DNA of 64,000 nucleotides from an uncultured Flavobacteriales bacterium (GTDB lineage Bacteria > Bacteroidota > Bacteroidia > Flavobacteriales > Crocinitomicaceae): the NCBI GenBank assembly GCA_946480085.1, contig CAMLHZ010000006.1:143367-207366 (forward strand), written 5' to 3'. How positions within the stretch are numbered: position 1 is the stretch's first letter; each line of letters begins with the position of its first letter. Of this stretch, positions 9,939 through 63,628 are shown piece after piece. Under the pieces are notes generated by a model that was given only the letters and a program-made list of their open reading frames with translations, made no database searches and was not told where the DNA came from. A program made the translations under genes and the position numbers.

Positions 9939-10280
9939 TTTAAAACACATAGGAACATAGAACACATAGTTTATAACGGTGTTATTACTTTGTGTACGTC
10001 GTGCCCTCGTGGTCGAATTGAAAGAACTACAGTAATGGTATAATGAGGATAAAGGATTGCAGATTCAGCGAGAGATTGTTGAGAGATTGAAACCGGTGTT
10101 GGAGTTTGAGACACGAGATTTAACCACATAGATACCTATCCGAAACATAGTGACAAACAACCCTATTGAAAATAAAAAGGTGAGCATTGAATTTAATTTC
10201 AATCAATGAGTAACTATGCTCTCTATGAGCAATTAACTACGTTCCTATGTGTTTAATAAACCAATTCTGAGGACCGAAGA
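9939..10280. repeat. Intergenic region with decayed ACACATAG repeats and 18-bp inverted repeats
   Basis: No gene seen. Copies of an ACCACATAGnnAC-type motif occur at about 9943, 9968 and 10112. An 18-nt motif AAACACATAGGAACATAG (9943-9960) is inverted at 10237-10254 with one mismatch. This looks like the remains of a small repeat-bounded element between the PepSY operon and the DUF1801 gene. Confidence 0.6.
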
Positions 10281-30082: not shown

Positions 30083-33000
30083 TTATTTGACCAAATGAAT
30101 AAACCCTTGTTTCATTCCTGTTTTGTCTGATTTTCCTTTTGGATAATAGATATAGAAATAAACACCTTCATTTAAACCTTCGCCATCAAATGTGTTTTCA
30201 TAAGGTGCAGCATGAAATATTGGGTTGCCCCAGCGATTAACGATGAACAATTCATTTTCTAGCTGCGAGAAAACATCATCAAAGTAGAAGAAATCATTTA
30301 TTCCATCGCCGTTTGGTGTAACCACATTTGGAAGCGGTCCAGCACAATCAACCGTTTCTACAAACAAAGTGTCGAAGTAAACACAACCCGATTGCGTGGT
30401 GATTTGAAGTACAAAATCCTGATTTCCGGTAATTGGAAGTTCAGTTGTATTTCCTAAACCAAGCCAGGTGTAAGAATTGGTGTCGTTAGGGAAGTAGTAA
30501 GTGTAAATATCGTTCAAACAGAAAATCGTGTCTGGCAATAAATTAAGATTTGGCGGTAGAATAGCATTTATGGTCAGGAAATCTGAATATTCGCAGCCCA
30601 AACTGTCCCAGGTATGAATGGTGTGTGTGCCCGAATTTTCTTCAGTTAGAATAAAGTCGACCTGATTATCATCCGTGAAATCTCCAAACGGTGTTTCCCA
30701 GAATATGCTGTCCGAATTTGTCGTAACTACAATGTTTCCGGGTGTATCCTCACAAAACGTAGCAAAGTTAATTTGTGTTGAGAATTGTCGGTCAGAGCCA
30801 TGAACCACAATGGTTCCGATATTCGTTGGACAAGCATTTTGGTCGTAACCAACAACAGTTACATTGGGATAACTATTCTCACCGGAGAATGTCACTTCAA
30901 AATCATCTTCATTCTGAAAAGGACTGGACCATTGAACCGAATCTAAATTGTTATTCAGTACAGATATTACTTCTGTTTCGTCGGCACAAAGTTTCAATGT
31001 GTCGTTTGACAATGAAAGCGCTGTTTGCGGATGAAGAGTGATAATTTCTACCACGGTTTGTGAGTAGCAAGAATTGGCAACCGTTACGGATAAGTTGTTA
31101 TCACTTTCAATTGATGAATACGGAATAGAAATTGGGTTGATATCTCCAACAAAAGTGTTCCCGCAGTACCATTCGATGGTTGCACTGTCAGGAATTCCGT
31201 CAATGTAGTAAACACCGTCTTCGTTATAACACAAGCTATTGTCGCCCAGGATATTTCCTATATCGAATGTTCCATCAATGATCACAACACTATCTAAAAT
31301 AGTTGTTCCACACTGTGTTAATTCTACGATATATACGCCGGGTGAAGAAACAATCAGACTATCTGCCGTAGAGCCTCCATTTTGCCATTCAATATCAATG
31401 TTTCCGGAATGGGTAATGTGGATGGTTGCGCTTTCGTTTGCACACAAAACGGCATCCGGATCAACGGATAACGTTGGAGTAGAATATTGGAAAACTTCGA
31501 ACGGATTGGCAACCAGCGAACAGCCATCGGCATCGATCACATGACATTCGTAAAGCCCAATATCCTGAACATAAACTACGGAAGTGTGTGATAAGGTGTC
31601 ACCATTCTGATTGATCCAGGCATAAGTTGTATAGAAGTTCGGAACAGCCAATTCAATCGAATCTCCCGGACAAACAACTCCATCAGGAACATTAGTGGTT
31701 ATTACCGGAGGCATTTTCAATCCCAAATACTGATTGAATAAGATGTAAACGTAACATCCTGTCACGGAATCTGTGATTGTTCCGCTATACGTGTACCATC
31801 CGGGAGTGTTAATCAATAAACTATCGTAGTTATTTGTCCAGATAGGATCAGGTCCGCTCCAGCTTAGATCCGAGTTTGGATTTCCCGAAATCAAGTAATC
31901 AGAATCACCCGGACAAAGTAATGAAGGACCAGTTACCATTGGATTCCAGCTAGGATTTTGGTTAACAGTTATGTAAAACTGCTGCGAGGTGTGGTACCAA
32001 ACAGTATCTACACCGCACAAGTTGTCATAACCAACAACAACGGTCATTTCAACGGTATACCAACCTGAAGTTACAGGTGAAAAAACGGCAGTTGCTGTAT
32101 CAAAATTGGGAACAGGTATTCCATTGATTTCCCACATTACAGTGTCAACCGGAATTTCTATCTGGGGAACGTAATTCGGAATAGTATTTACAAACAGATC
32201 AATTCCATGAAATTCAACCGGATTTCCTTGACAAACCTGCACTGAGTCACCTGTTGGAACATCAGTTGCCATTACAATTCCTGGTGAAAGTGTATCTGGA
32301 TCTAGCGCCAAATCCAAAATAAAAATGAACTCACCGTTATTCATACAATATTCATTTTCGACATGAACACTGTATTGAATTCCTGTATCAATCACATGTG
32401 GACCAGGTCCTGTGTAGGTTTGATCCGGACCAATGAGTTCCAAAACAGAATTTGGATCTAAACCAGAAAATAAAAGCGAAACACTTTCGGGATAACAATA
32501 ATGATAATCCAAATAATTTGGACCACCCTGATTTACGTTTACACCATGATCATCAGTCAATAAAGGTAGAGTAGGTGTTGGTTCCAGAATTCCATGAATG
32601 GTATCCAAATCAAATTCACAATCATCAATACGTTCAACTCTTACCCAGTAATCACCCGTCGCTGAAATGGTGCTGAAAGCATTAGTTGTTCCGTCATACC
32701 ACAAATGATCATAAGCAGGACCGTAATGATAGTATGTCAACGGATCGTAATTCAATTCCGCAGTCAAACAAAAATGAACGGTATCGTTTTCAAGCGTCAC
32801 ATAATCCGGAATTTGATTAGCGCTTAAATGACCAACCAAACTATCGTTAGCCGGCGGCATAAAGAAATTGTAAGCTCCGTAAGTTGAATTCACGTGTGTT
32901 TCCAAAAATGAATTCTTGCTTTGGTCGCCAACTAAGTACAAATGAAATGGTTCTGAACCGTAAAAAGGGTTGAAAGTATAGTTGTTTCCACCAATAACCG

Positions 33001-34384
33001 GAGCTGTTCCTCCCTGAAAATTCAGATCTTGAGAATAACTTCCTGCGATAAAGGGTTTGTTGTTTTGGTAAGCCGAAATTCCTTTTCCTTCGTCATCCAT
33101 TTTACCACCAAAATGTTTTACATAGCTGCGTGAGCCATTATTTTCCACCTTGATGAGGTAAGGATCCTTGTAACCAACAGAACTGAACAAATATTCAGTT
33201 GTGTCCTGAAGTTGTGACAAATCACACTTGAAATGTCCCGTAATGTAAATGCCGTTTGCCGGATCAATAGCTAGTGAACGTGCTGAAAGTTCATTGTCGG
33301 AACCCAATGTATTGTTCCAGATATGCTGACCATTTGCATTGGTTTTTACCCAGAAGATTTGTTTATCGTACGGATTTTGAATGTTGACAATTGCGCTTTG
33401 GTTGACATAAGTCATATTTCCAAGGAAATCTCCAATAACAATTGATTCATTGTCCTGATTAATCTCTACTTCGTAAGGAACAACCATTCCTGCTTTAAAG
33501 AGGTTAAAGAATTGAAATTGTCCGGCTGAATTTAGCTTCGCCAGATAACCAATATTGAAACCGTTGTTGGTAATGGTATTTCCTGCAAAAACAAGCGTAT
33601 CAGAAAATTGTCCGGTGAGGAAAACGTTATTTTGGAAATCCACATCAACAGAAAGTCCTCTATCGTCGTAGTCTGCAGTTCCGGTTACAGTCCAAAGTGG
33701 ATTTCCAGAACTATCGTATTTCAAAACGAAAATATCGAAACTTGGATTTCCAGTGTTTGGATTAGGGGTACTCACTAAGCTGGAACTTCCAATGGTAGAA
33801 TTTCCCTGGTATTCTCCGGTAATAATGACATTATTATTGTTATCAACGGCTAATTTATATCCATTTTCAATTCCTGAACCACCTTCTTTGCGAGCCCAGA
33901 GAATATTTCCTGCAGGGTCCATCTTTACAATGAAAATGTCTTTTGAATTGGAGTTTGACGTCAAGGTTGTACTTCCAAAAGTGACTGTTCCGAAGAAAGA
34001 ACCGCAAACAACGATATTTTGATCGGGACCAATAGCAACGTCTACCGCACGGTCGTCTTGAGAACCTCCGAATTGGGTGATCCAAAGAACGTCTCCGTTT
34101 GTTCCATATTTGGCTACATAGGCATCATTGCTTCCGTTGGTTCCGTTAAAACCGTTCATCGTACCAAAAGAAGTTTGTCCGGAGAAATAACCCGTAACAT
34201 AGCTTTGTCCTGAAAAATTGGTTTCTAAATCGGTTGCTTCATTAATGGTTTGACTAAAGGTGTTTGCTCCCCACCCTTGAGCGAAAGAGTGATTGGTAAA
34301 TAGCAAAGAAAAGAACAAAACAGAGCAAACCACATTTCGAAACGTAGTGCAATAATTGTTGAAAGACAGCTTTAGTAATGTCAA
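30083..34384 (-). CDS. Giant SBBP-repeat/CHU_C T9SS surface protein (copy B), start uncertain
   Basis: About 1433 aa. After a signal peptide ending HSFAQ|GW comes GANTFSQTINEATDLE, matching the N terminus of the paralogue at 35064-39767. About 400 residues of SBBP-type beta-propeller repeats follow (DAYVAKYGTNGDVLWITQFGG, DIFIVKMDPAGNILWARKEGG), then many Ig-like Cys-containing units and a terminal CHU_C domain (PNVVTPNGDGINDFFYFDD, VNRWGNPIFHA, FDGEGLNEGVYFYIYY). The only in-frame ATG is at 34567, 97 codons ahead of the cleavage site and overlapping the upstream gene. I place the start at TTG 34384; GTG 34333 is the alternative. The true ATG may have been lost. Surface-exposed, T9SS-exported; adhesion is inference. 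Confidence 0.82.
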   Translation of the reverse strand: MTLLKLSFNNYCTTFRNVVCSVLFFSLLFTNHSFAQGWGANTFSQTINEATDLETNFSGQSYVTGYFSGQTSFGTMNGFNGTNGSNDAYVAKYGTNGDVLWITQFGGSQDDRAVDVAIGPDQNIVVCGSFFGTVTFGSTTLTSNSNSKDIFIVKMDPAGNILWARKEGGSGIENGYKLAVDNNNNVIITGEYQGNSTIGSSSLVSTPNPNTGNPSFDIFVLKYDSSGNPLWTVTGTADYDDRGLSVDVDFQNNVFLTGQFSDTLVFAGNTITNNGFNIGYLAKLNSAGQFQFFNLFKAGMVVPYEVEINQDNESIVIGDFLGNMTYVNQSAIVNIQNPYDKQIFWVKTNANGQHIWNNTLGSDNELSARSLAIDPANGIYITGHFKCDLSQLQDTTEYLFSSVGYKDPYLIKVENNGSRSYVKHFGGKMDDEGKGISAYQNNKPFIAGSYSQDLNFQGGTAPVIGGNNYTFNPFYGSEPFHLYLVGDQSKNSFLETHVNSTYGAYNFFMPPANDSLVGHLSANQIPDYVTLENDTVHFCLTAELNYDPLTYYHYGPAYDHLWYDGTTNAFSTISATGDYWVRVERIDDCEFDLDTIHGILEPTPTLPLLTDDHGVNVNQGGPNYLDYHYCYPESVSLLFSGLDPNSVLELIGPDQTYTGPGPHVIDTGIQYSVHVENEYCMNNGEFIFILDLALDPDTLSPGIVMATDVPTGDSVQVCQGNPVEFHGIDLFVNTIPNYVPQIEIPVDTVMWEINGIPVPNFDTATAVFSPVTSGWYTVEMTVVVGYDNLCGVDTVWYHTSQQFYITVNQNPSWNPMVTGPSLLCPGDSDYLISGNPNSDLSWSGPDPIWTNNYDSLLINTPGWYTYSGTITDSVTGCYVYILFNQYLGLKMPPVITTNVPDGVVCPGDSIELAVPNFYTTYAWINQNGDTLSHTSVVYVQDIGLYECHVIDADGCSLVANPFEVFQYSTPTLSVDPDAVLCANESATIHITHSGNIDIEWQNGGSTADSLIVSSPGVYIVELTQCGTTILDSVVIIDGTFDIGNILGDNSLCYNEDGVYYIDGIPDSATIEWYCGNTFVGDINPISIPYSSIESDNNLSVTVANSCYSQTVVEIITLHPQTALSLSNDTLKLCADETEVISVLNNNLDSVQWSSPFQNEDDFEVTFSGENSYPNVTVVGYDQNACPTNIGTIVVHGSDRQFSTQINFATFCEDTPGNIVVTTNSDSIFWETPFGDFTDDNQVDFILTEENSGTHTIHTWDSLGCEYSDFLTINAILPPNLNLLPDTIFCLNDIYTYYFPNDTNSYTWLGLGNTTELPITGNQDFVLQITTQSGCVYFDTLFVETVDCAGPLPNVVTPNGDGINDFFYFDDVFSQLENELFIVNRWGNPIFHAAPYENTFDGEGLNEGVYFYIYYPKGKSDKTGMKQGFIHLVK

Positions 34385-34533
34385 AGCAAAGTTCAGTTTT
34401 GTCCTTTTTCCTAAAGGTAAGGAGAATTCAAAAGAACAAACGTGCAAATGAATATTCGAGTTGCTTGTGTGTTTAAAATCCACGAATCTCAAACAAATTG
34501 TAAGAAAAAACCTTTTTTTGTTGACTTTACAAC

Positions 34534-35031
34534 TTAACTGAAGATGGCTTTGTATTCTTCGATACAATTTGCGCCATATTTCTTTTTCAGGTAATCTTTC
34601 ATCACCTTGTTGTAACCTGGGATGTCTTCACCTTCAGGATTATAAAAGATACAACAGCCTACATAGTCGAAATTAACCTTGTACTTTTTCCTGAACGCTG
34701 CGGACCTTTTTTCGTTTTCTTTAGGAAAGCCCTGAAATCCTCCTCGAATGACAATTTCAACCACACCTTGCTCAATCATTTTTTTAGCATTCTCAACGGT
34801 ATACGGGCAAGGGATACCAACAAAAGCAATGCTTGTCGAATTGGTGTCTGATAGGTATGAGCTTGTCAGAACCTGATGGATAATTGGTTTTAGGGGGGCC
34901 AGTTCAGGCGTTTCTGGTCTTACCGTATCTTTTTTAAAGACATACAACGAATCGAATTTCGCATCGTTCTCCTGAGCGAATGTTAAACCTGAAAAGCAAC
35001 AGAATAAAAGTACAAGAAGGTGATTTGTCAT
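34534..35031 (-). CDS. Small secreted protein, FEKKY-domain-like
   Basis: 165 aa with signal peptide 1-19 (GLTFAQ|EN). The C-terminal half FRKKYKVNFDYVGCCIFYNPEGEDIPGYNKVMKDYLKKKYGANC resembles the FEKKY-type domain of short Bacteroidota secreted proteins (KKY, GC, YN..M..YL..KYG). Three to four Cys could form disulfides. It lies between two giant paralogous CHU_C proteins on the same strand, 32 bp after the upstream one, so the three are probably one operon (39767 to 30083). Its role is unknown; it may assist or modify the surface proteins, but that is only context. Confidence 0.7.
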   Translation of the reverse strand: MTNHLLVLLFCCFSGLTFAQENDAKFDSLYVFKKDTVRPETPELAPLKPIIHQVLTSSYLSDTNSTSIAFVGIPCPYTVENAKKMIEQGVVEIVIRGGFQGFPKENEKRSAAFRKKYKVNFDYVGCCIFYNPEGEDIPGYNKVMKDYLKKKYGANCIEEYKAIFS

Positions 35032-35063: not shown

Positions 35064-38000
35064 TTATCGAATCAATGTCAAGAATCCTTGTCTTCGATTT
35101 TCCGGATGCGCTTTTCCTTCCGGGTAATAGACATAAAAATAGACACCCTCATTAAGATTCTCACCATCGAAATCGTTGATGTAAGGACCAGCTTCGAAGA
35201 TCTTATTTCCGAATCTGTTGAAAAGAACCAACTCATTATTCAATTGAGAAAGTGCATCGTCGATAAAGAAATAATCATTCGTTCCGTCGCCGTTTGCCGT
35301 AATGAAATTCGGAATGGCGTCGTCGCAATCAACGGTTTCAACCACCAATGTATCAAAAGTTAAACAGCCTTGAGGCGTTGTAACGTTCAGTATCAGGTCC
35401 TGATTACTAAGAATGGGCAAATCCGTTGTATTTCCAAAGGTTGACCAGATATAAGTATTTGTATCGTTGGGGAAATAGAAAGTGAACACATCATTGATGC
35501 AATAAATCGAATCTGGTAAAATATCAATGTTCGGAATCAGATATTCAGGAACGTCTACAGAATCTGTGTAATGACAGCCTAAATTATCCCACAATTCAAC
35601 ATAGAACATTCCAGAGTGAGCAGCGTCTATTGCAAACGAAATGGTTGTTGTGTCGAACGTTCCAAACGGAGTTGTCCAAATTAAACTATCTGCATTTGTT
35701 TGAATAACAATTGATCCCGAATCTCCGGTACAGAAATTACTAAAATCGACCTCAATGTTACTGTTGAAATCTGGTGTAATTACCTGGATAGTATCGAGGT
35801 TTGAAATACATCCGTTATCGTCCATTCCGTAAACGGTGATAGGACCGTAGGTTAAATTTCCAGTTATTGTCAAATCGTCGTCTACAACTGTTCCCTGATA
35901 ACTGTTCCAAACGATGGAATCGAGATCAGTGTTCATTAAACTGAGAATTTCTGAATCATAGTAACAGAGCGAAATGCTGTCGTTTGCTAAAGCAATTTGT
36001 GGTTGAGGTAAAACGGTTACACTATCTGAAATGCTGGTGGCGTAACAATCGTTCGAAATTTGAACTGTGATAATAGTATTGTTATTCAAGGTGTTAAATG
36101 GAATTTGCATTGAATTGCCTACTCCAAGAAAACTTTGTCCGGAATACCAACTTGCTGTCTCAGTAGTTATGTTCACACTGAACAAGCCATTTTCGTTCTG
36201 ACAGAGAAGAGAATCACCGAATATTTCGTAATGGCCAAGTGAATCGAAAAGTGAAACGTTCACGGTTCCGTATGCCAACGGACATTCAGTGGACTGATAA
36301 GCCACAATGAAAGATGTATCCTGAACAACATTGTTCAAATGAAATTCATTATTAATGACAATCAACGAAGTATCGGAAGAGGTATACCAATTCAAAATGA
36401 ATGTGGAATTATCTTCCAGAACAACATTGTTTCCTACACAAACGGTTACCGACTCAATGTCAGGAATTACCGATTCGGGAACCTGAGTGATATTGATGGT
36501 ATTGGTGTTTGCAGTACAACCGTATTCGTTGGTTACAATTGCTGCATAAGCTCCGGCTTCGTATACAGGATATGCACCACCAGTTAGTTGACCATCATTC
36601 CATTCATACATCAAGTTGTTCGGATTTCCTAGAATCAACACCGTATCACCAAAGCACAAAATGGAATCAACAGCTGAAATAGAGGCAGAGAATGTGGCGT
36701 CGATGATTTCTATGGTGTCGGAAATGGTTATTCCACATTGACTGATTGCTACAGTATAAATTCCTGCGGTGTTCACAGTGATAGAGCTTCCTGTAGTGCC
36801 TGTTGGTGTCCAAACAAAACTTGGTGTTCCTGCATAAGCCACCTGGATGGTTACTGATTCACCTTCACAAAGAAATTCATCTGGCATAATCGTTATACTA
36901 GGAGTAGTATATTCTCTAAGTTCGAATGGAGGAGTGGTTAAATGACAATCTTCGTCATCCACCACATGGCAATAGTAAAATCCTAAATCTTCACCGTAAC
37001 ATTCATAGGTTTGAGATAAGCTATCTCCATTAGGTCCAATCCAATCGTAACTTTGATACGTGTTTTGAATGTACATTAAAACGGAATCGTAAGGACAAAC
37101 AATTGCATCGGCGGGATTAGAAACAATGTTCGGAGCCGTTTTAAGTGTAATGTTGTGCCATACGGCTTCCGGATTAGAACAACCTGTAATTGTATCTACA
37201 ACACTCCCGTGATATTGATAAGTGCCAGGAGCATTAACTTCTATACTGTCATTTAAGTTATTCCATATTATTCCAGGTCCAGTCCAGTTGAAATTTGGAT
37301 GCGGGTTGTTTACAACAAGAAATATTGAGCCATTTGGACAAAGCAGATTATCACCTGAAATTGTTCCTGACCAAGTAGGTAGAGGATTTACAGTGATATA
37401 AAATTGTCGTGTCACATGATAATTCGTAGTATCTATTCCGCATAAATTGTCGTACCCGGTAGAAAAATATAAGTCAACGGTGTACCAACCAGAACTGCTA
37501 GGTGTGAAGTAGGTATGTACGTTCGGATAATTGTTGTATTGAGAGCCGTTAATCGTCCAAACAATGTTCGTGACAGGAGATTGAATATCTGGGGAGTAAG
37601 TTGCTAATGGATTGGTGAATAAATCAATTCCACTAAAATACACTGAATGATTTGCGCAGATAGTAAGTGAGTCTCCAGTCGAATTAGCGTTTTGCATAAC
37701 GATTTGAGGAGACACCGAATCATTTGGCAGTACATAATCCAAATTGAAGTGAAAATCACCCATAGCTTGACAATATTCGTTATTGACAATTACATGGTAC
37801 CAGCCTTCATTTTGTATACTGAATGGCCCGGTTCCAATTAAATTTGAACCATTTGGAACTGTTGTCAATAATGTGCTGCCTGAATCTAAACCTGAATAAG
37901 TAATTTCTATACTTTCCGGAGCACAATAATGGTAATTGTTGTAATGAGGGCCAGGATTGAATACGTTCACGTTGTGATCATCAGATAATAATGGTAAAAC

Positions 38001-39767
38001 CGGAATGGGTTCCGAAATCGCATAAACACTGTCAATGTCCAATTCACATTCGTCTGAACGAGTCACGGTAACTGAATAATTTCCAGTTGTTGTAATGATC
38101 AGTTTATTCCCTGTTACTCCTGTATTCCAAAGGTATTCATAACTCGGACCGTAATGCGCATAGGTTAAAGGATCGTAGCGCAATGAATCTTTTGTACAAA
38201 AGTGGATGGTGTCATTTACCAGATTTGGAGCCCAATTGTACTGAACAATTTCTCCAATCAAACTGTCATTAGCAGGTGGTACGAAATAATTCAAGGTATG
38301 GTAGTTGGAATTGATGTGATTAATTAGAAAAGAATTTCTGGTATCATCCCCAAGCATGTACATGTGAGCAGCTTCATTTAAACCAGCATAATGAAGTGAA
38401 TAGTTGTTATTCGCAGTTTGCACAACGTCAGGTGTTGGTGCGAAGTTCAGGTCCTTGGTAAAACTTCCGCAGATATAAGGCTTATCATTTTCTTTGATGG
38501 CTATACCCAAACCTTCGTCGTCCTTTTTACCGCCAAAATGCTTGATGTATTCAAATTGTCCGGTATTCGTAACCTTTAATAGATATGGATCCTTAAATCC
38601 GACAGAATTGAATGTAGCCTGTGCAGTATCTTGAATTTGTGATAAATCACATTTGAATGAGCCGGTTACAAATACATCGTTGTGTAAATCAACAGCAATA
38701 GCTCTGGCGGAAATGTCATTGTTTGAACCCAGTGTGTGATTCCAGAGATAACTTCCGTTGTTTTCTGTTTTGATGATGAAGATTTGTTTATCGTAAGGGT
38801 TCTGAAAAGCATGCGCACCACTGGCATCGTAATAATTCATATTGCCAATAAAGTCACCTGTCATGAACACCTGATTATTTGTATTCAACTCCAAATCATA
38901 GGCAATCACCATTCCTGCCTTCATTTGATTGAAAAACTGCAGTTGTCCTGCTGGATTCAACTTGCACAAGAAACCAATGTTGTACCCTTGATTTGGATAA
39001 GTATTCGAAGCAAATGTCAGGTTTTTAGAAAATTGACCAGTAAAAAAGATGTTGTTCTGATTGTCCACCGCAACAGCAAGACCTCTGTCCTCGTATTGTG
39101 CGTTACCATTTAAACTCCATGTAGGGTTACCATTTACATCGTATTTGGAAATGAAGAAGTCAAACGAATATTGATTCGTATTAGGGTCAATGGCACTGGT
39201 GAATGAATTGTTCCCTATAATCGCTGTCCCTTGAAATTGCCCCGTTAAAATCACATTGTTCTGGTGGTCTACTGTAATTCCATAAGCGTTTTCAGCCATA
39301 TTTCCACCTTCACTTCTTGCCCAAAGCACATTTCCGCTCGGGTCTAATTTTACAATAAAGATATCTTTTGAATTTCCAACAGAAGTAAGTGTAGTGGAAC
39401 CAAACGTGACAGTTCCAAAGAATTGTCCTGTAACCACAATGTTTTGGTCGGGACCAATAGCCAAATCAATTGCTCGATCGGAATAATTTCCACCAAATAT
39501 TTTTTTCCAAAGAAGTGATCCTGTTGTAGAATATTTTGCAACGTAAATGTCGCCATTCCCGGCAGCAGAAGGGACAACATTCGCGGTGTTAAAAGCTGTT
39601 TCTCCCGTAATGTAGCCTGCGATGTATGATTCTTCGTTGGCATTCAGCTCTACATCGTTCGCCTCATTGGTGAACTGACTAAAGGTATTTGCTCCCCATT
39701 GTTGTGCGAATGTTGCAGAAGAAGCGAGGAATATCAGTAATAGCAGGATTGATTTTAGTGTGTTCAT
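35064..39767 (-). CDS. Giant SBBP-repeat/CHU_C T9SS surface protein (copy A)
   Basis: 1567 aa with a good signal peptide (MNTLKSILLLLIFLASSATFAQ|QW). Residues 25-480 hold SBBP-type propeller repeats (DIYVAKYSTTGSLLWKKIFGG, DIFIVKLDPSGNVLWARSEGG). Residues about 540-1470 are a string of Ig-like units with recurring CxxD/CPNGS starts and long Asn/Ser/Thr-rich strands. Residues about 1480-1567 are the CHU_C type B sorting domain (PNFITANGDGTNDYFFIDD, FNRFGNKIFEAGPY, NLNEGVYFYVYY). It is collinear with the 30083-34384 protein, an old duplication around the small secreted gene. The SprB-like size and CTD suggest a gliding or attachment adhesin; the ligand is unknown. Confidence 0.88.
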   Translation of the reverse strand: MNTLKSILLLLIFLASSATFAQQWGANTFSQFTNEANDVELNANEESYIAGYITGETAFNTANVVPSAAGNGDIYVAKYSTTGSLLWKKIFGGNYSDRAIDLAIGPDQNIVVTGQFFGTVTFGSTTLTSVGNSKDIFIVKLDPSGNVLWARSEGGNMAENAYGITVDHQNNVILTGQFQGTAIIGNNSFTSAIDPNTNQYSFDFFISKYDVNGNPTWSLNGNAQYEDRGLAVAVDNQNNIFFTGQFSKNLTFASNTYPNQGYNIGFLCKLNPAGQLQFFNQMKAGMVIAYDLELNTNNQVFMTGDFIGNMNYYDASGAHAFQNPYDKQIFIIKTENNGSYLWNHTLGSNNDISARAIAVDLHNDVFVTGSFKCDLSQIQDTAQATFNSVGFKDPYLLKVTNTGQFEYIKHFGGKKDDEGLGIAIKENDKPYICGSFTKDLNFAPTPDVVQTANNNYSLHYAGLNEAAHMYMLGDDTRNSFLINHINSNYHTLNYFVPPANDSLIGEIVQYNWAPNLVNDTIHFCTKDSLRYDPLTYAHYGPSYEYLWNTGVTGNKLIITTTGNYSVTVTRSDECELDIDSVYAISEPIPVLPLLSDDHNVNVFNPGPHYNNYHYCAPESIEITYSGLDSGSTLLTTVPNGSNLIGTGPFSIQNEGWYHVIVNNEYCQAMGDFHFNLDYVLPNDSVSPQIVMQNANSTGDSLTICANHSVYFSGIDLFTNPLATYSPDIQSPVTNIVWTINGSQYNNYPNVHTYFTPSSSGWYTVDLYFSTGYDNLCGIDTTNYHVTRQFYITVNPLPTWSGTISGDNLLCPNGSIFLVVNNPHPNFNWTGPGIIWNNLNDSIEVNAPGTYQYHGSVVDTITGCSNPEAVWHNITLKTAPNIVSNPADAIVCPYDSVLMYIQNTYQSYDWIGPNGDSLSQTYECYGEDLGFYYCHVVDDEDCHLTTPPFELREYTTPSITIMPDEFLCEGESVTIQVAYAGTPSFVWTPTGTTGSSITVNTAGIYTVAISQCGITISDTIEIIDATFSASISAVDSILCFGDTVLILGNPNNLMYEWNDGQLTGGAYPVYEAGAYAAIVTNEYGCTANTNTINITQVPESVIPDIESVTVCVGNNVVLEDNSTFILNWYTSSDTSLIVINNEFHLNNVVQDTSFIVAYQSTECPLAYGTVNVSLFDSLGHYEIFGDSLLCQNENGLFSVNITTETASWYSGQSFLGVGNSMQIPFNTLNNNTIITVQISNDCYATSISDSVTVLPQPQIALANDSISLCYYDSEILSLMNTDLDSIVWNSYQGTVVDDDLTITGNLTYGPITVYGMDDNGCISNLDTIQVITPDFNSNIEVDFSNFCTGDSGSIVIQTNADSLIWTTPFGTFDTTTISFAIDAAHSGMFYVELWDNLGCHYTDSVDVPEYLIPNIDILPDSIYCINDVFTFYFPNDTNTYIWSTFGNTTDLPILSNQDLILNVTTPQGCLTFDTLVVETVDCDDAIPNFITANGDGTNDYFFIDDALSQLNNELVLFNRFGNKIFEAGPYINDFDGENLNEGVYFYVYYPEGKAHPENRRQGFLTLIR

Positions 39768-57734: not shown

Positions 57735-58109
57735 ATGATAGAATCAAAATTCATATTGGATATAATAGCAACAACGATTGCAGGTGAAAAGCACGAAGAC
57801 CAAATGGCTAAGCAAATAAAGCATTTGGAGGAAGTAGAGTACGAGCACATGGACACCGGATTGATTTTGTTTCTTGATCCTGAGCCGAAGATTAAACCCT
57901 ACGTTTTGACAAATGAGCAATTGGTTGAAACATTTGGAGACAAAGATCATGAATTGTCTAAAGTGGAATTAATTAAAGAAGACCAAAAGATTCAGGCCGA
58001 TGTATCTGTTCACTTTGTAAATGGAATCATCGATCGCATCGAGATTTGGAACAAGAAAGGTGAGTATCCTGAAGACGATTTAGCGAGTTGGGAATTAATT
58101 CGTAGATAG
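57735..58109 (+). CDS. Hypothetical acidic cytoplasmic protein
   Basis: 124 aa, with no signal peptide or membrane helix and many Glu/Asp/Lys. Segments such as HMDTGLILFLDPEPKIKPYVLTNEQLV and VSVHFVNGIIDRIEIWNKKGEYPEDDL look like a small beta-sheet domain, but I do not recognise the family. The ATG at 57735 lies in sequence that still resembles the start of the 46241 kinase, so the true start could be further in (for example at residue 24, MAKQ). The membrane protein gene follows 11 bp later on the same strand. Confidence 0.6.
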   Translation: MIESKFILDIIATTIAGEKHEDQMAKQIKHLEEVEYEHMDTGLILFLDPEPKIKPYVLTNEQLVETFGDKDHELSKVELIKEDQKIQADVSVHFVNGIIDRIEIWNKKGEYPEDDLASWELIRR

Positions 58110-58120
58110 GCTTTTAACAA

Positions 58121-58501
58121 ATGATACTCATAGCTCATTACGGACTTGTAATATTGCTGTCGCTTTTTTTAGTGTTTCATCTGTGCATTCTCCTTAAAGT
58201 GATTCCCTACAGCATTGTTTGGGGCGGACGATTAAAAACAGACACAGAGATGTATCGGTTTGAAACCGTATCCATTTTGATTAATCTCGTTTTTCTGCTC
58301 ATTGCTTTGGCGCAATCACCTTTTTTAATAATCGACCTTCCCAACACAGTACTGACGATTTTATTATGGGTTTTGGCAGCCTTGTTTCTGTTCAATACTT
58401 TCGGAAATGCATTGTCAAAAAACAAATTAGAACAAATCATCTTTACGCCCATCACCGTTCTATTAACCATCTTTTCAGTCATTTCAGCAGTAAGCAACTG
58501 A
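58121..58501 (+). CDS. Small four-helix membrane protein
   Basis: 126 aa, with hydrophobic helices at about 7-27, 49-67, 72-92 and 103-122. Between helices 1 and 2 is KVIPYSIVWGGRLKTDTEMYRFE, a conserved-looking loop that I associate with an unnamed bacterial membrane protein family. It has no transport or enzyme motif. It lies 11 bp after the preceding hypothetical gene. The attC-like boundary of the cassette region begins right after its stop codon, so it is the last gene before the clearly cassette-like units. Confidence 0.65.
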   Translation: MILIAHYGLVILLSLFLVFHLCILLKVIPYSIVWGGRLKTDTEMYRFETVSILINLVFLLIALAQSPFLIIDLPNTVLTILLWVLAALFLFNTFGNALSKNKLEQIIFTPITVLLTIFSVISAVSN

Positions 58502-58540
58502 CGAGAAAACGAGTGAAAATTAGTATACTTGTTAGGCACC

Positions 58541-58566
58541 TTTGTCTATTTGGAAACCGTTAGCAG
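58541..58566 (+). repeat. attC-like right half, site A
   Basis: TTTGTCTATTTGG, a 5-nt spacer and GTTAGCAG. It is nearly identical to the right half of site C (59701-59724). A left half is present only in diverged form; AATTAGTATACTTGTTAGG resembles AATGATTATACTTGGTAAGG of site B. Confidence 0.6.
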
Positions 58567-58575
58567 TAATTTAAA

Positions 58576-59061
58576 ATGACGAAAACTGACAAATCCATAC
58601 ATAACATTTGTATTGCTTCAATAAAGAGAAGTACAATAAAGCCGTATGACTTTAAATGGACGAAGTTTTATGAAGATAACACGGAGTTTCCATATGCTGG
58701 ACTTGAAATTGACTTGATGGAGGATGAACTATTTATTTGTTCCACTTTTATTGATCAGAACAACTTCAGTATTGTGACTACAAGACGACTATTAACTCAA
58801 CAAGACGGTCAATTATACTCGGAGTATATTCAAGGTGCGACTGACAAATTGTATGGTGACTTTAAAGGTTATCAAGACAAGGATTTTACGTTCGGACAAG
58901 TTCAAGTGCAAAACGGAAATGAAATAAAATACTTTATTGAAACAGGTGAAGCATCAATGGTTATGATACATGGCGTACGAACTTTAATCAGGACTACACA
59001 AATGGCGCATAATCAAATAGAAAAAGTGAAACGAATTTGGGACAAACAGAACGAAAAATGA
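58576..59061 (+). CDS. Hypothetical protein, cassette-borne
   Basis: 161 aa, soluble, with no signal peptide. Segments like FKWTKFYEDNTEFPYAGLEIDLMEDELFICSTFID and a mixed alpha/beta pattern suggest a single small domain, but I recognise no family. It starts 9 bp after GTTAGCAG (58559-58566) and ends 3 bp before CTGCTAAC (59065-59072), so the ORF fills the unit as in integron cassettes. No strong ribosome-binding sequence, as usual here; expression may depend on an upstream promoter. Confidence 0.65.
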   Translation: MTKTDKSIHNICIASIKRSTIKPYDFKWTKFYEDNTEFPYAGLEIDLMEDELFICSTFIDQNNFSIVTTRRLLTQQDGQLYSEYIQGATDKLYGDFKGYQDKDFTFGQVQVQNGNEIKYFIETGEASMVMIHGVRTLIRTTQMAHNQIEKVKRIWDKQNEK

Positions 59062-59064
59062 AAA

Positions 59065-59142
59065 CTGCTAACACTAAATAAATCAAGCGCCAAAAATGAT
59101 TATACTTGGTAAGGGAATTTACTTGTTTGGGAACCGATATGT
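59065..59142 (+). repeat. attC-like site B
   Basis: CTGCTAAC (59065-59072), one base, CTAAATAA (59074-59081), then TTGTTTGG (59123-59130), a 5-nt spacer GAACC and GATATGT from 59136. CTAAATAA and TTGTTTGG pair with two G-T pairs. Same 78-bp length and order as site C. Confidence 0.65.
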
Positions 59143-59154
59143 ACAATTACAACC

Positions 59155-59640
59155 ATGATAGAAAAACACCTGAAATATAACTTTCCAGAAAAAAACAGTG
59201 ACCCTTTTGACACTGATTTTGATGGTAACTATTTTGCTTTTGCAAATGCATTCACGAATTTGTCGGATAAACTATCTGATTTTTCAATAGATATTCTCGA
59301 GAAGCAAATTCCAATGGGATACAAAACGATTATTATTCTTAATAGATTAAGTATACTATCAAATGGTTTTGAGAAATCTCGTTGGGAAGAGTCGATAAAT
59401 AGGGTAAAAAGCAGTCGTTATTTCTTAACCACTGACAAGACAATTCAATTTTTCAGGAAGGATTGGCAGGCTAACATAGAGACAAATGTTATTTACAAAC
59501 CAGAGTCGAATGATGCAAGCTTAAATTCGAGCATATGGGATAACTTTCAAGAATGCTTGGAATATGCAAAGAAGGTATCCGAAGAAAATAAATGCACTGT
59601 TATTATTTCAGAGGTGCTAGATTCAATATCATGGCATTAA
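59155..59640 (+). CDS. Hypothetical protein, cassette-borne
   Basis: 161 aa, soluble, of unknown family, with aromatic and acidic residues spread evenly (FPEKNSDPFDTDFDGNYFAFANAFTNLSDKL ... GYKTIIILNRLSIL). No signal or membrane segment. It starts 19 bp after the boundary GATATGTACA (59136) and ends 6 bp before TGTACATAAC (59647), the near-complement of its own start. No similarity to the neighbouring ORF of the same length was noticed. Probably an accessory gene of unknown role. Confidence 0.65.
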   Translation: MIEKHLKYNFPEKNSDPFDTDFDGNYFAFANAFTNLSDKLSDFSIDILEKQIPMGYKTIIILNRLSILSNGFEKSRWEESINRVKSSRYFLTTDKTIQFFRKDWQANIETNVIYKPESNDASLNSSIWDNFQECLEYAKKVSEENKCTVIISEVLDSISWH

Positions 59641-59646
59641 AAAAGA

Positions 59647-59724
59647 TGTACATAACACCAAATAAATCAAGCACAAAAAGTCTAGATTTATAAGTCATCT
59701 TTGTCTATTTGGAAAACGTTATAA
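59647..59724 (+). repeat. attC-like site C
   Basis: TGTACATAAC (59647-59656), one base, CCAAATA (59658-59664), then TATTTGG (59706-59712), AAAAC and GTTATAA from 59718. The inner arms pair perfectly. Confidence 0.68.
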
Positions 59725-59776
59725 CCAATTGTAAAGAAATAGCACCAAAAGAATATACAGAATAATTTAAAAAAAC

Positions 59777-60097
59777 ATGAAAACTTGTCCGAACTGCAAA
59801 TCAGAAATTGAAGATGATTGGGATTTATGCTGGAATTGTAATTATAGTATGAGTGAAAACAAAGTCATTGAAAACGAAGTTGTTGAAAACAAAGAAACGA
59901 CAAAAGAAAGCAGAGAAATAGAATGTTTAAGATGTAATATCCCTTTAATATTTGCAGGGGATTACAAATTTCATGAAGGCGCAAGGATCGGTTTTTTTGG
60001 TGATTTATTTGAGGCTTTTGTTAACCGAGAAAAATTCGATTTATACGTTTGTCCAAAATGTAGAAAAATAGAATTTTACGTGCCACAGAAAGTATGA
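59777..60097 (+). CDS. Double zinc-ribbon small protein, cassette-borne
   Basis: 106 aa. An N-terminal zinc ribbon CPNCKSEIEDDWDLCWNC (Cys at 4, 7, 19, 22) is followed by a short acidic linker with ENEVVENKE-like repeats. A second ribbon pair CLRC (about 54-57) and CPKC (about 95-98) surrounds GDYKFHEGARIGFFGDLFEAFVNRE. The second half recalls small Bacteroidota proteins that read as nucleotide- or lipid-associated zinc ribbons, but the function is unknown. It lies in the unit starting GTTATAACC at 59718; the complementary end motif is not clear (TTATACAG at about 60110). Confidence 0.7.
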   Translation: MKTCPNCKSEIEDDWDLCWNCNYSMSENKVIENEVVENKETTKESREIECLRCNIPLIFAGDYKFHEGARIGFFGDLFEAFVNREKFDLYVCPKCRKIEFYVPQKV

Positions 60098-60547
60098 GGA
60101 CATTTATACAGAAAAGCTCCAAAGCTGGCGCGAGTCACTGACTCGTACCATTTCTTAACAACTCACGAGCTCGGTAACGAAGAGATAATTAAAATAGAAG
60201 CTGGGATTAGTCTTCGTTTTTTTTGTGCTGATAAAATATAAACATGTAAGGACTCGATCTATTCAAGAAATGCGCGCTATTTTACGATTTGCAAGATTAT
60301 TTAGTATATTCGGTTAAAGTAATAAAACCTTCGCCTATACACTGCCGTGAGACATTTTTGACAAGGTTTGTAGCTTGTATAAAGAAGTTAGCGATAATTA
60401 TGAATGAAATCTCATCTATAGTTAATAGTCTTATGTATTAATCGGTAAAATGATACTATAGCTTTGTTGTCCAAATTATTTTACAAAATAGATTACCATA
60501 AAATGCCATTAAAAAAAATATATTTTAGTATTCATAAATAAAAAACA
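60098..60547. other. Intergenic boundary region with hairpin and structured element E1
   Basis: No gene seen. It holds the palindrome CGAGTCACTGACTCG inside a CCAAAGCTGGCG...CTCGTACC block (60113-60145), a GATTAGTCTTCG stretch before T8 near 60207 that echoes the terminator at 62533, and element E1 (60281-60386) that ends in AAGTTAG and resembles 62619-62722. Confidence 0.6.
60281..60393 (+). repeat. Structured boundary element E1
   Basis: AAACCTT (60325-60331) pairs with AAGGTTT (60363-60369). It shares ACGATTTG, CCTnCGCCTA and GTATAAAnAAGTTAG with E2. It ends in GTTAGCG, the putative start of the unit carrying the FG-GAP-like gene. Confidence 0.55.
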
Positions 60548-62515
60548 ATGTGTAAAAAACTACTTTTTTTTGCGCTGTTTGCTATAGCCTGCTGTCAAAC
60601 AACAACTGCACAAAACTGGAATGAAATTATTAAAGCCACAGCTAATGATAGGGGAGCAAATGATTGGTTTGGCTGGTCAGTAGCCATCTCGGGTGATTAT
60701 GCTATTGTGGGGGCTTATCGGGAAGATGAAGATGTGTCAGGAGGGAATACGCAAAGCGAATCTGGTTCGGCTTATATCTTCAAAAAAAATGGAGGAACAT
60801 GGAGTCTGATTCAAAAAATCGCGGCTTCTGACAGGAGTGCTGGTGATTTCTTTGGCTCTTCGGTATCCATTTCTGGAGATTATGCTGTTGTGGGGGCTTT
60901 TAATGAGGATGAAGATGCATCTGGCGGAAACACTAAATCTAATGCTGGTTCGGCTTATATTTTTAAAAACAACGGCGGAACATGGACACAGGTTCAAAAA
61001 ATTGTAAATTCTGACAGAAATTTTAACGATCATTTTGGCTATTCAGTAGCCATCTCGGGAGATTATATCGCTGTAGGAGCCGTTTGGGAAGATGAAGATG
61101 TCTCGGGTATGAATCCTCTGGGATTTGCCGGTTCAGCTTACATATTTAAAAATAATGCAGGAACGTGGACCGAAGTTCAAAAAATTGTGTCTTCGGATAG
61201 AGCCGTTCAAGATTACTTTGGCCAATCTATTGCCATCTCTGGAGATTATATCATAGTTGGCGTTCAATATGAGGATGAAAACGTATCTGGCGGAAGTACA
61301 CAATCGGAGGCAGGATCAGCTTATATCTTCAAAAACAATGCTGGAATATGGACGCAGGTACAAAAAATCGTAGCCTCCGACAGGGCTGCTGGTGATATGT
61401 TTGGATTTTCGGTAGCCATTTCGGGAGATTATGCCATTGTTGGTGCTATATGGGAAGATGAAAATGAAGCTGGTGGGAATACCCAAACTTCTGCCGGATC
61501 AGCCTATATTTTCAAAAACAATTTGGGAACATGGACACAAATGCAAAAAATTGTGGCTTCCGATAGATCTATTGATGATAGATTCGCTGCATCTGTATCT
61601 ATATCAGGAGAATATGCTATAGTAGGAGCTGTAGGAGAATCCCATGATGTTTCTGGTAATAACACCTTAAGCGAAGCGGGTTCGGCCTATATTTTTAAAC
61701 TCAATGGAGCAACATGGATACAATCTCAAAAAATTGTAACATCCGACAGGGATGTTAATGATCAATTCGGCTATTCAGTAGCCATCTCAGGAAATTATGC
61801 ATTGGGAGGAGCAATTAATGAGGATGAAGATGCATTTGGAGGGAATAGCCAAAGCGCAGCCGGTTCAGCTTATATTTTTGGGCTAGATTGTTCGACCACT
61901 GGAGTTGACAATCAAATCGCTTGCGATAGTTATACATGGATCGACGGAAATACCTATACGGAATCAAACAATATAGCCACTCACATCCTAACCAATGCCA
62001 CAGGCTGCGACAGTGTGGTTACACTGAATTTGACAATAAACACGGTGGACATTTCTGTATCTAGCAATGGTCCAACCTTAACCGCTACGGCAACGGGTGC
62101 CGCTTATCAATGGTTAAACTGTGATAATAATTTTAGTGAAATTATTGGCGAAACAGGACAATCATTTACTGCAATGGCTAATGGAAATTATGCTTTAGAA
62201 ATTATCCAAAACGGTTGTACTGATACCTCAATTTGTTATACAGTATCAGGTGTGGGAATAGCAGAAAACGGAGTGGAGATTTACACGGTTGTATACCCAA
62301 ACCCAAGCCCCAAAACGTTTATAGTGAAATTAGGTAAAACTTATTCAGATGTTACTGCTAGAGTAGAGAACATAACCGGAGTGCTGATTAATCAATATGA
62401 ATACACATCTACTGATAAATTTCAAGTAAACATAGAAGAAGAACCAGGTATATATTTTATTAGGTTGTATTCTTCTGGTAATCAAATAGCTAATATTAAA
62501 GTAGAGAAACGATAA
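60548..62515 (+). CDS. Seven-repeat FG-GAP-like beta-propeller protein with type A T9SS sorting domain
   Basis: 655 aa with signal peptide (1-21, QTTTA|QN). Residues 33 to about 447 consist of seven repeats of exactly 61 aa: SDR...D.FG.SVAISGDYAIVGA..EDED.SGGNTQS.AGSAYIFKNN.GTWTQVQKIV. This matches FG-GAP/integrin-alpha-type blades, so a seven-bladed propeller is likely; the DED/ED acidic turns may bind Ca. A repeat-like unit with CDSYTWIDGNTYTESN and ATGCDSVVTLNLTIN follows, then an Ig-like piece and a type A sorting domain (VVYPNPSPKTFIVKLGK ... GIYFIRLYSSGNQIANIKVEKR). Exported and surface-anchored. Large for a cassette; flanked by boundary elements E1 and E2. Confidence 0.88.
   Translation: MCKKLLFFALFAIACCQTTTAQNWNEIIKATANDRGANDWFGWSVAISGDYAIVGAYREDEDVSGGNTQSESGSAYIFKKNGGTWSLIQKIAASDRSAGDFFGSSVSISGDYAVVGAFNEDEDASGGNTKSNAGSAYIFKNNGGTWTQVQKIVNSDRNFNDHFGYSVAISGDYIAVGAVWEDEDVSGMNPLGFAGSAYIFKNNAGTWTEVQKIVSSDRAVQDYFGQSIAISGDYIIVGVQYEDENVSGGSTQSEAGSAYIFKNNAGIWTQVQKIVASDRAAGDMFGFSVAISGDYAIVGAIWEDENEAGGNTQTSAGSAYIFKNNLGTWTQMQKIVASDRSIDDRFAASVSISGEYAIVGAVGESHDVSGNNTLSEAGSAYIFKLNGATWIQSQKIVTSDRDVNDQFGYSVAISGNYALGGAINEDEDAFGGNSQSAAGSAYIFGLDCSTTGVDNQIACDSYTWIDGNTYTESNNIATHILTNATGCDSVVTLNLTINTVDISVSSNGPTLTATATGAAYQWLNCDNNFSEIIGETGQSFTAMANGNYALEIIQNGCTDTSICYTVSGVGIAENGVEIYTVVYPNPSPKTFIVKLGKTYSDVTARVENITGVLINQYEYTSTDKFQVNIEEEPGIYFIRLYSSGNQIANIKVEKR
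60644..61889 (+). repeat. Seven in-frame 183-bp repeats
   Basis: Units start at residues 33, 94, 155, 216, 277, 338 and 399 of the encoded protein with no length variation; the last unit is cut after AYIFG. The DNA repeats are similar but not identical. Confidence 0.9.
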
Positions 62516-62532
62516 AACAAAAATTAATAACT

Positions 62533-62561
62533 AAAAGCGAAGATTAGTCTTCGCTTTTTTT
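62533..62561 (+). terminator. Terminator of the FG-GAP-like gene
   Basis: AAAAGCGAAGA / TCTTCGCTTTT around TTAG, with T7 after it, 18 bp after the stop codon. Confidence 0.9.
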
Positions 62562-62618
62562 GTGCTTCTAAATGTATAAATGTGAACGACAGGTACATTA
62601 AGTAAATCCACTTACCGC

Positions 62619-62722
62619 TTGACGATTTGAAGTTTTTTTGTCTACATTAGCTATACGCGACAAACCTGCGCCTAAATATTTTTTTTGGTTGTCAAAAGGC
62701 AGGTTTTAGGGAGTATAAATAA
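62619..62722 (+). repeat. Structured boundary element E2
   Basis: AAACCTGC (62662-62669) pairs with GCAGGTTT (62699-62706). Compared with E1 one stem pair changes T-A to G-C in both arms. It ends directly before GTTAGAAC at 62723. Confidence 0.55.
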
Positions 62723-63268
62723 GTTAGAACTCATTTTATGACGACAAAAAACACTTACATATTGACCATTTTCGTTTTTGTTTTCGGACTTGTTGCTTGT
62801 GGACAAAGCACTGCATCTCAAGATTCGATAATAACTAAATCAAACTATTCACTTTCAATAACTACATTTAATCACGCAGAGCAATTTTCTAAGGGTGTAA
62901 CAACTTATAGCCTAAAGAATGACACATTGACTATTCGAAAGACATTTAGGCTATCAGACAAAGTCACAATATTGTTTTCAAAAAAAATAGACGATAATTC
63001 CATTGAGCAAATTAAAAGTGTAGGCATCGACAGTTTAAAGGACTTTTATTGTAACAACTGCGTAATGATGACAAGTGGAAATGAATATTTTATCTCAACG
63101 ACTATTGACACAGTTAATAAGAAAATTATTCTTCATCACTATTACAACGAACAAATTGAAAGACTAATTAATGAACTGAACAAAAACATACCAGACAGTT
63201 TTAAACTTCACTATTTGAGAAGTGAAACTAAACAAGACTGCGAGATGTAAATAAAAATGAGTTCTAAC
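62723..63268 (+). repeat. 15-bp perfect inverted repeats enclosing a lipoprotein gene
   Basis: GTTAGAACTCATTTT (62723-62737) is immediately followed by the ATG, and AAAATGAGTTCTAAC (63254-63268) begins 4 bp after the stop codon. Confidence 0.95.
62738..63250 (+). CDS. Cassette-borne lipoprotein, unknown function
   Basis: 170 aa with lipobox GLVA|C (Cys21) after a hydrophobic segment. The mature domain is about 150 aa, with NNCVMM containing a second Cys and a C-terminal amphipathic helix (NEQIERLINELNKNIPDSF). I recognise no family. The start codon directly follows a 15-bp motif whose exact reverse complement comes 4 bp after the stop, so gene and boundaries form one compact unit. No promoter box is seen between E2 and the ATG; the boundary element itself may supply it. 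Confidence 0.72.
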   Translation: MTTKNTYILTIFVFVFGLVACGQSTASQDSIITKSNYSLSITTFNHAEQFSKGVTTYSLKNDTLTIRKTFRLSDKVTILFSKKIDDNSIEQIKSVGIDSLKDFYCNNCVMMTSGNEYFISTTIDTVNKKIILHHYYNEQIERLINELNKNIPDSFKLHYLRSETKQDCEM

Positions 63269-63307
63269 AGGCCCCAAAGCTGGCGAGAGACTCTGGCTCG
63301 TGCCCAC

Positions 63308-63628
63308 ATGATCTATGATCGTGCTGCCGGAAATATGGAATACGTAAAGGAAATGATTGAACTTTTCCGTAAGGAAATGCCGGTTTATTTAGCTGAAATG
63401 GAAGACGCATTGTCAAAATCGGACACGGAAATGGTAAAGCGTATTGCTCATAAAATGTTAAGCCCTTCTGCCTTTTTTGGAGCCAACGATCTTTGTGTTA
63501 CACTAAGGGAAATGGAGAAAAAAGTAGATTTGAGTCCAGATGAGATCAAGCTCCTTGTTCAGCAAGTAAATCAAAAGTGCTTAACTGTGTTTGAGGAGTT
63601 GAAGAAGGAATTGGATGCGATTGGGTAG
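63308..63628 (+). CDS. HPt-domain protein, probably truncated from a larger kinase
   Basis: 106 aa from ATG 63308. An HPt four-helix bundle with phospho-acceptor His48 in VKRIAHKMLSPSAFFGA; DRAAGNMEYVKEMIELFRKEMPVYLAEMEDAL is the typical first half. The frame is open upstream to ATG 63257, but those 17 codons lie over the cassette end motif (63254-63268) and the CCAAAGCTGGCG block, so they are not native HPt sequence. HPt domains carry phosphate in multistep relays. As it sits at the right edge of the array, it may be the tail of a hybrid kinase whose front was lost. It could still work with the REC proteins at 55-57 kb. Confidence 0.82.
   Translation: MIYDRAAGNMEYVKEMIELFRKEMPVYLAEMEDALSKSDTEMVKRIAHKMLSPSAFFGANDLCVTLREMEKKVDLSPDEIKLLVQQVNQKCLTVFEELKKELDAIG

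Follow-up and report, generated by a model that had tools for sequence, protein, structure and literature searches.

Positions 58,486 to 63,303 of a 64,000-nucleotide stretch of contig CAMLHZ010000006.1 from an uncultured Flavobacteriales bacterium (the whole stretch is called the window here) very probably hold the remains of a decayed chromosomal integron. It would belong to a Bacteroidota type with an XerA-like tyrosine recombinase as its integrase, which is without the additional domain (I2) of the integron integrase IntI. Read from the sequences, this assignment is built on the pairing of each cassette with its own other end, a strand bias, the order integrase–attI–array, duplications with exact ends, the missing domain and an integrase remnant in the window. 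We also favor, with less assurance, the broader view that there is a second integron lineage, widespread in Bacteroidota, which would recombine folded single-stranded attC sites without the I2 helix and in whose sites extrahelical bases are replaced by wobble pairs and a spacer on one side, the window being a decayed member. The window's TypA protein is 93% identical to that of a metagenome-assembled genome named Fluviicola (G001), and we take the window to be part of a Crocinitomicaceae chromosome.

Fuller arrays are found in other genomes. We chose 20 recombinase loci of the family by score and contig room, blind to arrays, and found a 14-base word recurring at cassette-like spacing in four of them (L154 in G222, L167 in G030, L166 in G152, and L160). 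Locus L160 was rejected as an array, its repeated word looking like a tandemly repeated coding block. These relatives have a tyrosine recombinase, next to it an attI-like site, and after that a run of same-strand cassettes. The 156 kb read from G030 contain 45 forward and no reverse sites (33 at 2331724-2360580 and 12 at 2443944-2452478), and the longest open reading frame (ORF) runs forward in 37 of 42 cassettes. The G030 cassettes open with GTTR and variable bases and most of them close with their own reverse complement, exactly over 10 bp in 21 of 31. For these 31 cassettes the own ends match at 171 of 186 variable positions, compared with 88 ± 6.7 after permutation of the closing boxes (0 of 10,000 permutations), which strongly confirms for the fuller arrays what had been claimed in a preliminary description of the window, namely that a cassette start is complementary to its own R''. 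The L stem behaves likewise, with 6.7 of 7 within a site versus 5.99 ± 0.13 between sites for the 23 G030 sites of exact pairs (0 of 300).

Duplicated cassettes are an indirect mark of movement. One G222 cassette, enclosing an ORF of 446 amino acids, is present twice, 1388 of 1400 compared bases being alike, and the identity ends at the cassette boundaries; in G030 two cassette pairs lying 10-19 kb apart are 0.998 and 0.991 alike. Behind the integrase, L151 and L159 are contigs that break off precisely at a GTT(A) boundary, which suggests that the next cassette may vary between cells. In Persicobacter (L247; CP012852, 11713-12804) we found a 363-amino-acid integrase 51% identical to that of G222 with repeats nearby; no 10/10 cassette pair was detected there.

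Cassette pairs go with the recombinase. A strict detector (C, then GTTR, with 10/10 own complement) gave 30 pairs in 340 kb around 26 integrase loci, two of them overlapping (shuffles 5.3), and 4 pairs in 363 kb around 25 control loci at TypA (shuffles 5.0). Among 24 integrase loci, several of which had been chosen via motif matches or matches to the window gene p0a, 15 offered at least 2 kb downstream and 9 were too short. A downstream same-strand pair is present at 12 of these 15 family loci and an upstream one at 1 of 22, with 3 antisense pairs in all; for loci fetched by score alone the downstream count is 8 of 11. In the wider phylum, 99 of 296 Bacteroidota genomes contain a match (E 1e-60 or better) to a profile built from 12 array-type integrases. 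Pairs were counted in 20 of the 25 best-scoring of these 99 genomes, five with little apparent room being omitted. These high-scoring loci carry pairs in 14 of 19 eligible cases, 41 pairs versus 0.8 in shuffles, with 2 upstream and 1 antisense. For the candidate integrase of G001 no pair was found on locus L001, its place on the locus being assumed.

The recombinases concerned differ from IntI. Not one of the 240 family genomes passes the cut-off of the IntI model TIGR02249; all 240, like all 14 control genomes, have some match to it. The proteins P0149 and P0150 reach 202 and 233 bits on this model (cut-off 265), and the two array-linked proteins scanned reach 233 and 236 bits on the XerA-type model NF040815, above its cut-off of 220. 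P0150 aligns with the integrase VchIntIA (2A3V) in two pieces, between which IntI has about 43 more residues. We aligned 22 family recombinases, after removal of two duplicate rows, to IntI1 and an IntI2-like protein; the I2 domain is missing in 22 of 22, with 71-72 residues where IntI has 113 (about 41 fewer). A tree of 43 rows, including 7 XerD and 6 XerC, unites the 10 array-linked rows with 15 other family recombinases in a single clade (99/96). XerC, XerD and IntI stand apart from it, each with a support of at least 99/98; the array-linked recombinases thus lie outside the host XerC and XerD clades. IntI is the nearest outside group to the recombinase clade with a support of 82/85, which is not firm. 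A separate XerD scored over its cut-off in 7 of 7 genomes searched. One family genome, G094, has several near-equal-scoring recombinase copies of 291-300 amino acids, perhaps an amplified element.

We then folded 64 sites from up to 18 arrays, made by joining each cassette's own ends and considered as minimum-energy folds only. By energy the bottom strand folds better in 59 and the top strand in 5 (family 32 of 32, phylum set 27 of 32; sign test 4.5e-13); an earlier, looser site set had given 21 of 22 for the bottom strand. In G116 and G080 the strand difference appears by eye to be due largely to top-strand A·C mismatches which are T·G wobbles on the bottom strand. The interruption between R and L is most commonly one of 4 nt facing 0 nt (31 of 64). 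These sites have the complementary R' and R'' of one cassette, the L stem, the unpaired spacer and, by energy, the bottom-strand preference of IntI-type sites. The extrahelical bases of the L stem, two of which are described for folded classical attC sites (PMC3053210), were not found in most of them: in 48 of 64 sites the 10 bp next to the spacer are free of asymmetric bulges.

In the window itself we recognize the following parts.

57735..58109, plus strand: p0a, function unknown; adjoins the integrase in G116, G080 and G128; 7 of 14 genus genomes have a homologue with 52-64% identity
58121..58501, plus strand: p0b, a 126-amino-acid ORF between p0a and the array; no Pfam match
58530..58558, plus strand: S0, TTGTTAGGCACCTTTGTCTATTTGGAAACC, L' plus spacer making up the right half of an attC-like site; near the L' half of G080 and G116 sites, left half not recognizable
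58559..59135, plus strand: cassette c1; R' 58559-58567, ORF 58576-59061, R'' 59064-59072, attC 59064-59135; own ends complementary 9/9
59136..59717, plus strand: cassette c2; R' 59136-59145 (core GAT), ORF 59155-59640, R'' 59647-59656, attC 59647-59717; own ends complementary 9/10
59718..60149, plus strand: unit c3; opens at 59718 with R' GTTATAACC, then a zinc-ribbon-like ORF (59777-60097) and a class B repeat (60116-60149), without a matching R''
60237..60292, plus strand: 3' remnant of an integrase gene, from the alignment with the G116 integrase end and attI
60320..60386, plus strand: S4, attI-like site with end TATAAAGAA, then GTTA at 60387; from the G116 alignment and the attI alignment with nine other loci
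60387..62722, plus strand: unit c4; opens with GTTAGCGATAATT, FG-GAP repeat ORF 60548-62515; no matching R''
62655..62722, plus strand: S5, second attI-like site, a diverged copy of the S4 region (S4 versus S5 local score 107)
62723..63304, plus strand: cassette c5; R' 62723-62737, ORF 62738-63250, R'' 63254-63268, class B end 63269-63304; own ends complementary 15/15
63302..63628, plus strand: Hpt-domain gene of the right flank (PF01627, E 1e-10)

The three inverted pairs from which the preliminary description had started are all in place. The first, GTTAGCAG/CTGCTAAC at 58559 / 59065, had been given as 8/8 and extends to 9/9 as GTTAGCAGT/ACTGCTAAC; the second, GATATGTACA/TGTACATAAC at 59136 / 59647, is complementary at 9 of 10 positions and the third, GTTAGAACTCATTTT/AAAATGAGTTCTAAC at 62723 / 63254, at 15 of 15. 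The first and third pairs are the longest inverted matches flanking their own ORF; the 8-bp exact part of the second is equalled in length by two other inverted matches around its ORF. The boundaries share further sequence. AACACYAAATAAATCAAGC is found after the closing boxes of c1 and c2 (2 matches with up to 3 mismatches; shuffle mean 0.05, 0 of 100 shuffles reaching 2), both c1 and c3 have TTTGTCTATTTGGNAAMCG just ahead of their opening box (2 matches, with a mean of 0.17 in shuffles, 1 of 100 reaching 2), and AATT stands exactly at positions 10-13 past the boundary in c1, c2 and c3. When folded, the window sites slightly prefer the bottom strand over the top (c1 -9.2 versus -8.6, c2 -8.8 versus -7.1, c5 -14.4 versus -13.6 kcal/mol), and the c5 site is more stable than 200 of 200 shuffles. 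A search with Rfam at the gathering threshold gave no match in the window, and the class B motif was absent from 150 family genomes at up to 1 mismatch, and from viral contigs. The 9 bases from 57254 match a box whose end is at 58498, but the earlier cassette that they might open was dropped because its start would fall inside a conserved gene. We also discarded a looser chain detector, with which 3 of 40 shuffles yielded chains, of lengths 3 and 4.

A stretch of the window beginning at 60237 can be aligned to the last part of the G116 integrase gene, as far as about 60292, and further into the G116 attI (60320-60386), with a score of 70 as compared to 45 for the best of 200 shuffles. In nine other loci the integrase stop is followed by an A/T-rich end like TATAAATAA (0-3 changes) ahead of GTTA, and the two window copies have a similar end; G030 and G222 have a palindrome at the attI position in its place. 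Between this stop and the start of the cassettes there are about 50 nt in G030, about 206 nt in G222 and 92-118 nt in the genus. An attI-like site lies beside the integrase, as in IntI-type integrons. The S4 region has a second copy at about 62522-62742, which on its own shows no significant match to the G116 tail (6 of 200 shuffles). A 44-nt repeat (82%) at 60192-60235 and 62529-62572, which looks like an intrinsic terminator (hairpin and T run), is duplicated along with the adjoining attI-like region.

In G116, which belongs to the genus of G001, the order is TypA, p0a (60% identity), a 296-amino-acid integrase, an attI-like site and an array of sites resembling those of c1 and c2 (class A). 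By eye this array includes an apparent restriction–modification set (L212, reverse complement 7854-10506) with a helix–turn–helix regulator, a methyltransferase-like ORF and a third ORF. In G128 p0a, integrase and attI are followed by the end of the contig, and in G080 the integrase lies about 3 kb past p0a and the array elsewhere in the genome. One G080 cassette has the ends GTTATGTACA / TGTACATAAC, the latter being the closing box of c2 in the window, and encloses a gene without detectable similarity to c2. An integrase is thus near p0a in 3 of 7 genus genomes having p0a; in the 20 kb fetched from each of the four others none was detected, with 0 pairs in 80 kb. The window cassettes are absent from the stretch read in 7 of 7 genus p0a loci, and the identical gene order in distant relatives which according to the preliminary description would speak against an array was not seen. 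Searched with up to 1 mismatch in the 240 family genomes, the L'-R' motif of the window has 45 listed matches in 37 genomes versus 26 for the reversed control, a weak excess; 5 of the 45 lie downstream of family recombinases on the same strand (two in G116, two in G139, one in G004). The R''-L'' motif was set aside: in 26 close-relative genomes it gave 13 matches in 11 genomes versus 6 for the reversed control, by eye mostly in coding sequence.

Because of the integrase remnant, the attI-like site and the order found in the genus, the window is best read as the genus's chromosomal integron with a truncated integrase, and since the integrase is truncated its array is presumably now fixed, unless the genome has an intact copy at another place. 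The preliminary description had left open whether this is an attC cluster without integrase or another recombinase system with similar ends, and each of the two is partly right. As to the former, the window indeed has no working integrase, but a 3' remnant of one adjoins the attI-like site; as to the latter, the related arrays adjoin an XerA-like recombinase without the additional domain, of which the window keeps only that remnant. Own-end pairs are present in c1, c2 and c5; two attI-like sites and the remnant are included in the stretch, and therefore not every unit is a clean cassette.

A number of observations weigh against reading the window in this way. Only 3 of 5 units are matched, the units opening at 59718 (c3) and 60387 (c4) having no matching closing box, and the core of the c2 opening box is GAT instead of GTT. 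The cassette start TTRRRY assumed in the preliminary description, or GTTRRRY, is not literally present in the window boxes (TTAGCA, ATATGT, TTAGAA). Neither is GTTRRRY the consensus in G030, where GTT and A or G are followed by about five largely free cassette-specific bases; positions 5-9 of the R box are variable, and T or C is common at the purine positions. The class B repeat (60116-60149, 63271-63304) is weak alone, 6 of 100 shuffles reaching 2 matches. On both strands the window has 5 further 9/9 pairs besides that of c1, so that a lone pair proves little. The class A sites of the window fold modestly, shuffles being as stable in 30 of 200 (c1) and 8 of 200 (c2) cases for the top strand and in 4 and 2 of 200 for the bottom strand, and in the larger set 16 of 64 sites have one or two asymmetric bulges in the L stem. 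The remnant is short, its protein alone giving 14 residues with 71% identity at E 0.20, and the same uncorrected protein search gives a better E of 0.001 to 58249-58647 on the minus strand (24% identity), a match we take to be spurious. No pair was found in 3 of 15 family and 5 of 19 phylum loci. Finally, homologues of the c1 protein occur in 5 of 395 phylum genomes and none of the five is carried as a cassette. The GAT in c2 and the missing closing boxes fit decay.

If the window and its relatives belong to such an integron lineage, a cassette would leave and enter arrays in circular form by way of its attC, the partner probably being attI. On the folded bottom strand the closing box R'' would pair with the cassette's own R', often followed by a one-sided unpaired spacer and then the L stem. 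As in integrons, the recombinase, which we infer to move the cassettes and to use a single-stranded substrate, would act on the folded bottom strand and attI and exchange strands between G and TT of R' (G|TT). The one-sided spacer is a candidate for how an enzyme without I2 could stop after the first strand exchange. The lineage may represent the state before IntI gained I2, or an independent solution.

The R boxes of 10 bp come close in size to the arms of Xer sites, and the attI-like sites of G030 and G222 are palindromic. Together with scores above the XerA-type model NF040815 and below IntI this would suit units moved as double-stranded DNA by a Xer-type recombinase, similar to dif sites or to integrative mobile elements exploiting Xer (IMEX), the inverted boxes being two binding arms without any single-strand folding. 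However, R'' and R' are complementary within a cassette and yet variable between cassettes, which a fixed arm would not need, and the preference for the bottom strand (59 of 64) points the same way. We regard movement as double-stranded DNA as unlikely.

Still less likely in our judgment is a classical integron array, that is a cluster of attC sites lacking an integrase (CALIN), served by an ordinary IntI with the additional domain which is encoded elsewhere in the genome or has been lost. Our view of this organism is limited to the window rather than its whole genome, and the attC-like architecture, the cassette-own R boxes and the bottom-strand preference are integron marks. But none of the 240 family genomes exceeds the TIGR02249 cut-off, the recombinases adjoining arrays are without I2 in 22 of 22 and the window remnant aligns with one of these; moreover the R boxes depart from RRRY and the L stem without asymmetric bulges prevails. 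Chance inverted repeats, terminators or a small hairpin element without any cassette system are very improbable. The class B repeats do resemble a hairpin element, single 9/9 pairs exist elsewhere in the window and 2 of 5 units are unmatched. Against this stand the shared boundary sequences, the constant distance of AATT from the boundary, the remnant and its attI, and the similarly built arrays of other genomes, which tell against it for c1-c3 and leave it mainly for the class B ends.

As to the cargo, the c1 protein has 285 homologues in the protein database at E<=0.001, and among the 120 listed many are on very short metagenome contigs, as might be the case for cassettes in hard-to-assemble arrays. 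The c5 protein has 4 weak matches in the 240 family genomes (best E 5e-7), one of which, in G061, sits between attC-like sites but has no matching ends. The c4 ORF 60548-62515 has internal repeats of 183 bp; its FG-GAP_2 repeat protein matches a type IX secretion tail weakly. The Hpt gene of the flank was rejected as a synteny marker: its matches in 12 of 14 genus genomes are none better than E 1e-11 and 20 of 21 lie within frames of 836-1116 residues. Elsewhere in the window the ORF list contains two pairs of adjacent, visibly paralogous large surface-type proteins (19634-22729 / 23010-26108 and 30083-34567 / 35064-39767).

The statement that integrons are little described in Bacteroidota is borne out insofar as they are known and reported to be rare (PMC9024848, PMC8618304); one complete Bacteroidetes integron, of Salinibacter ruber, is nevertheless on record (PMC9024848), and the phylum is listed among those with integrons (PMC8618304, PMC9668308). 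The insertion of IntI is described as essential for integron function and as not fully conserved in an integron-like subgroup (PMC8138268), and single-strand attC recombination is tied to the acquired I2 helix, Xer proteins being without I2 (PMC7790495). One survey retained only matches with the additional domain or the intI patch (PMC2426708), and enzymes without I2 may therefore have been left out; the attC site was modelled from 11 taxa with no Bacteroidetes among them (PMC8352920). No account of arrays like these turned up in our literature search, the scope of which excluded all bioRxiv preprints and the majority of subscription papers. Folded-site cassette arrays beside recombinases without I2 would make the requirement for I2 testable in nature and bear on the origin of integrons. 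They suggest a large unseen cassette pool in Bacteroidota. The recombinases, which do not reach the IntI cut-off applied here, may escape tools built around IntI.

The arrays resemble the sedentary chromosomal integrons with IntI (VchIntIA, PDB 2A3V; Vibrio superintegrons) in the integrase lying by an attI-like site, in the mostly one-ORF cassettes of the same orientation, in R''-L''-L'-R' sites with cassette-own R boxes and in the better folding of the bottom strand. They differ from them in an integrase without the additional domain (about 43 residues of 2A3V unmatched), in R boxes of GTTR and free bases and in the lack of a bulged L-stem base in 48 of 64 sites. In class 1 integrons integrase and array are divergent, whereas here they are co-directed and attI lies past the 3' end of the integrase. 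The Salinibacter ruber integron, compared here by its description, is reported as a complete Bacteroidetes integron and was found by a tool based on IntI and attC models, and the present recombinases are below the IntI cut-off. An attC cluster without integrase is termed CALIN (PMC9024848), and the window shares with it attC-like sites without a working integrase but retains an integrase 3' remnant and attI-like sites. With XerA-type recombinases (NF040815, 'site-specific tyrosine recombinase/integron integrase'; PDB 4a8e, 5hxy) the present ones have in common a score above the cut-off and the same domain layout; unlike them they adjoin cassette arrays and coexist with a separate XerD in 7 of 7 genomes searched.

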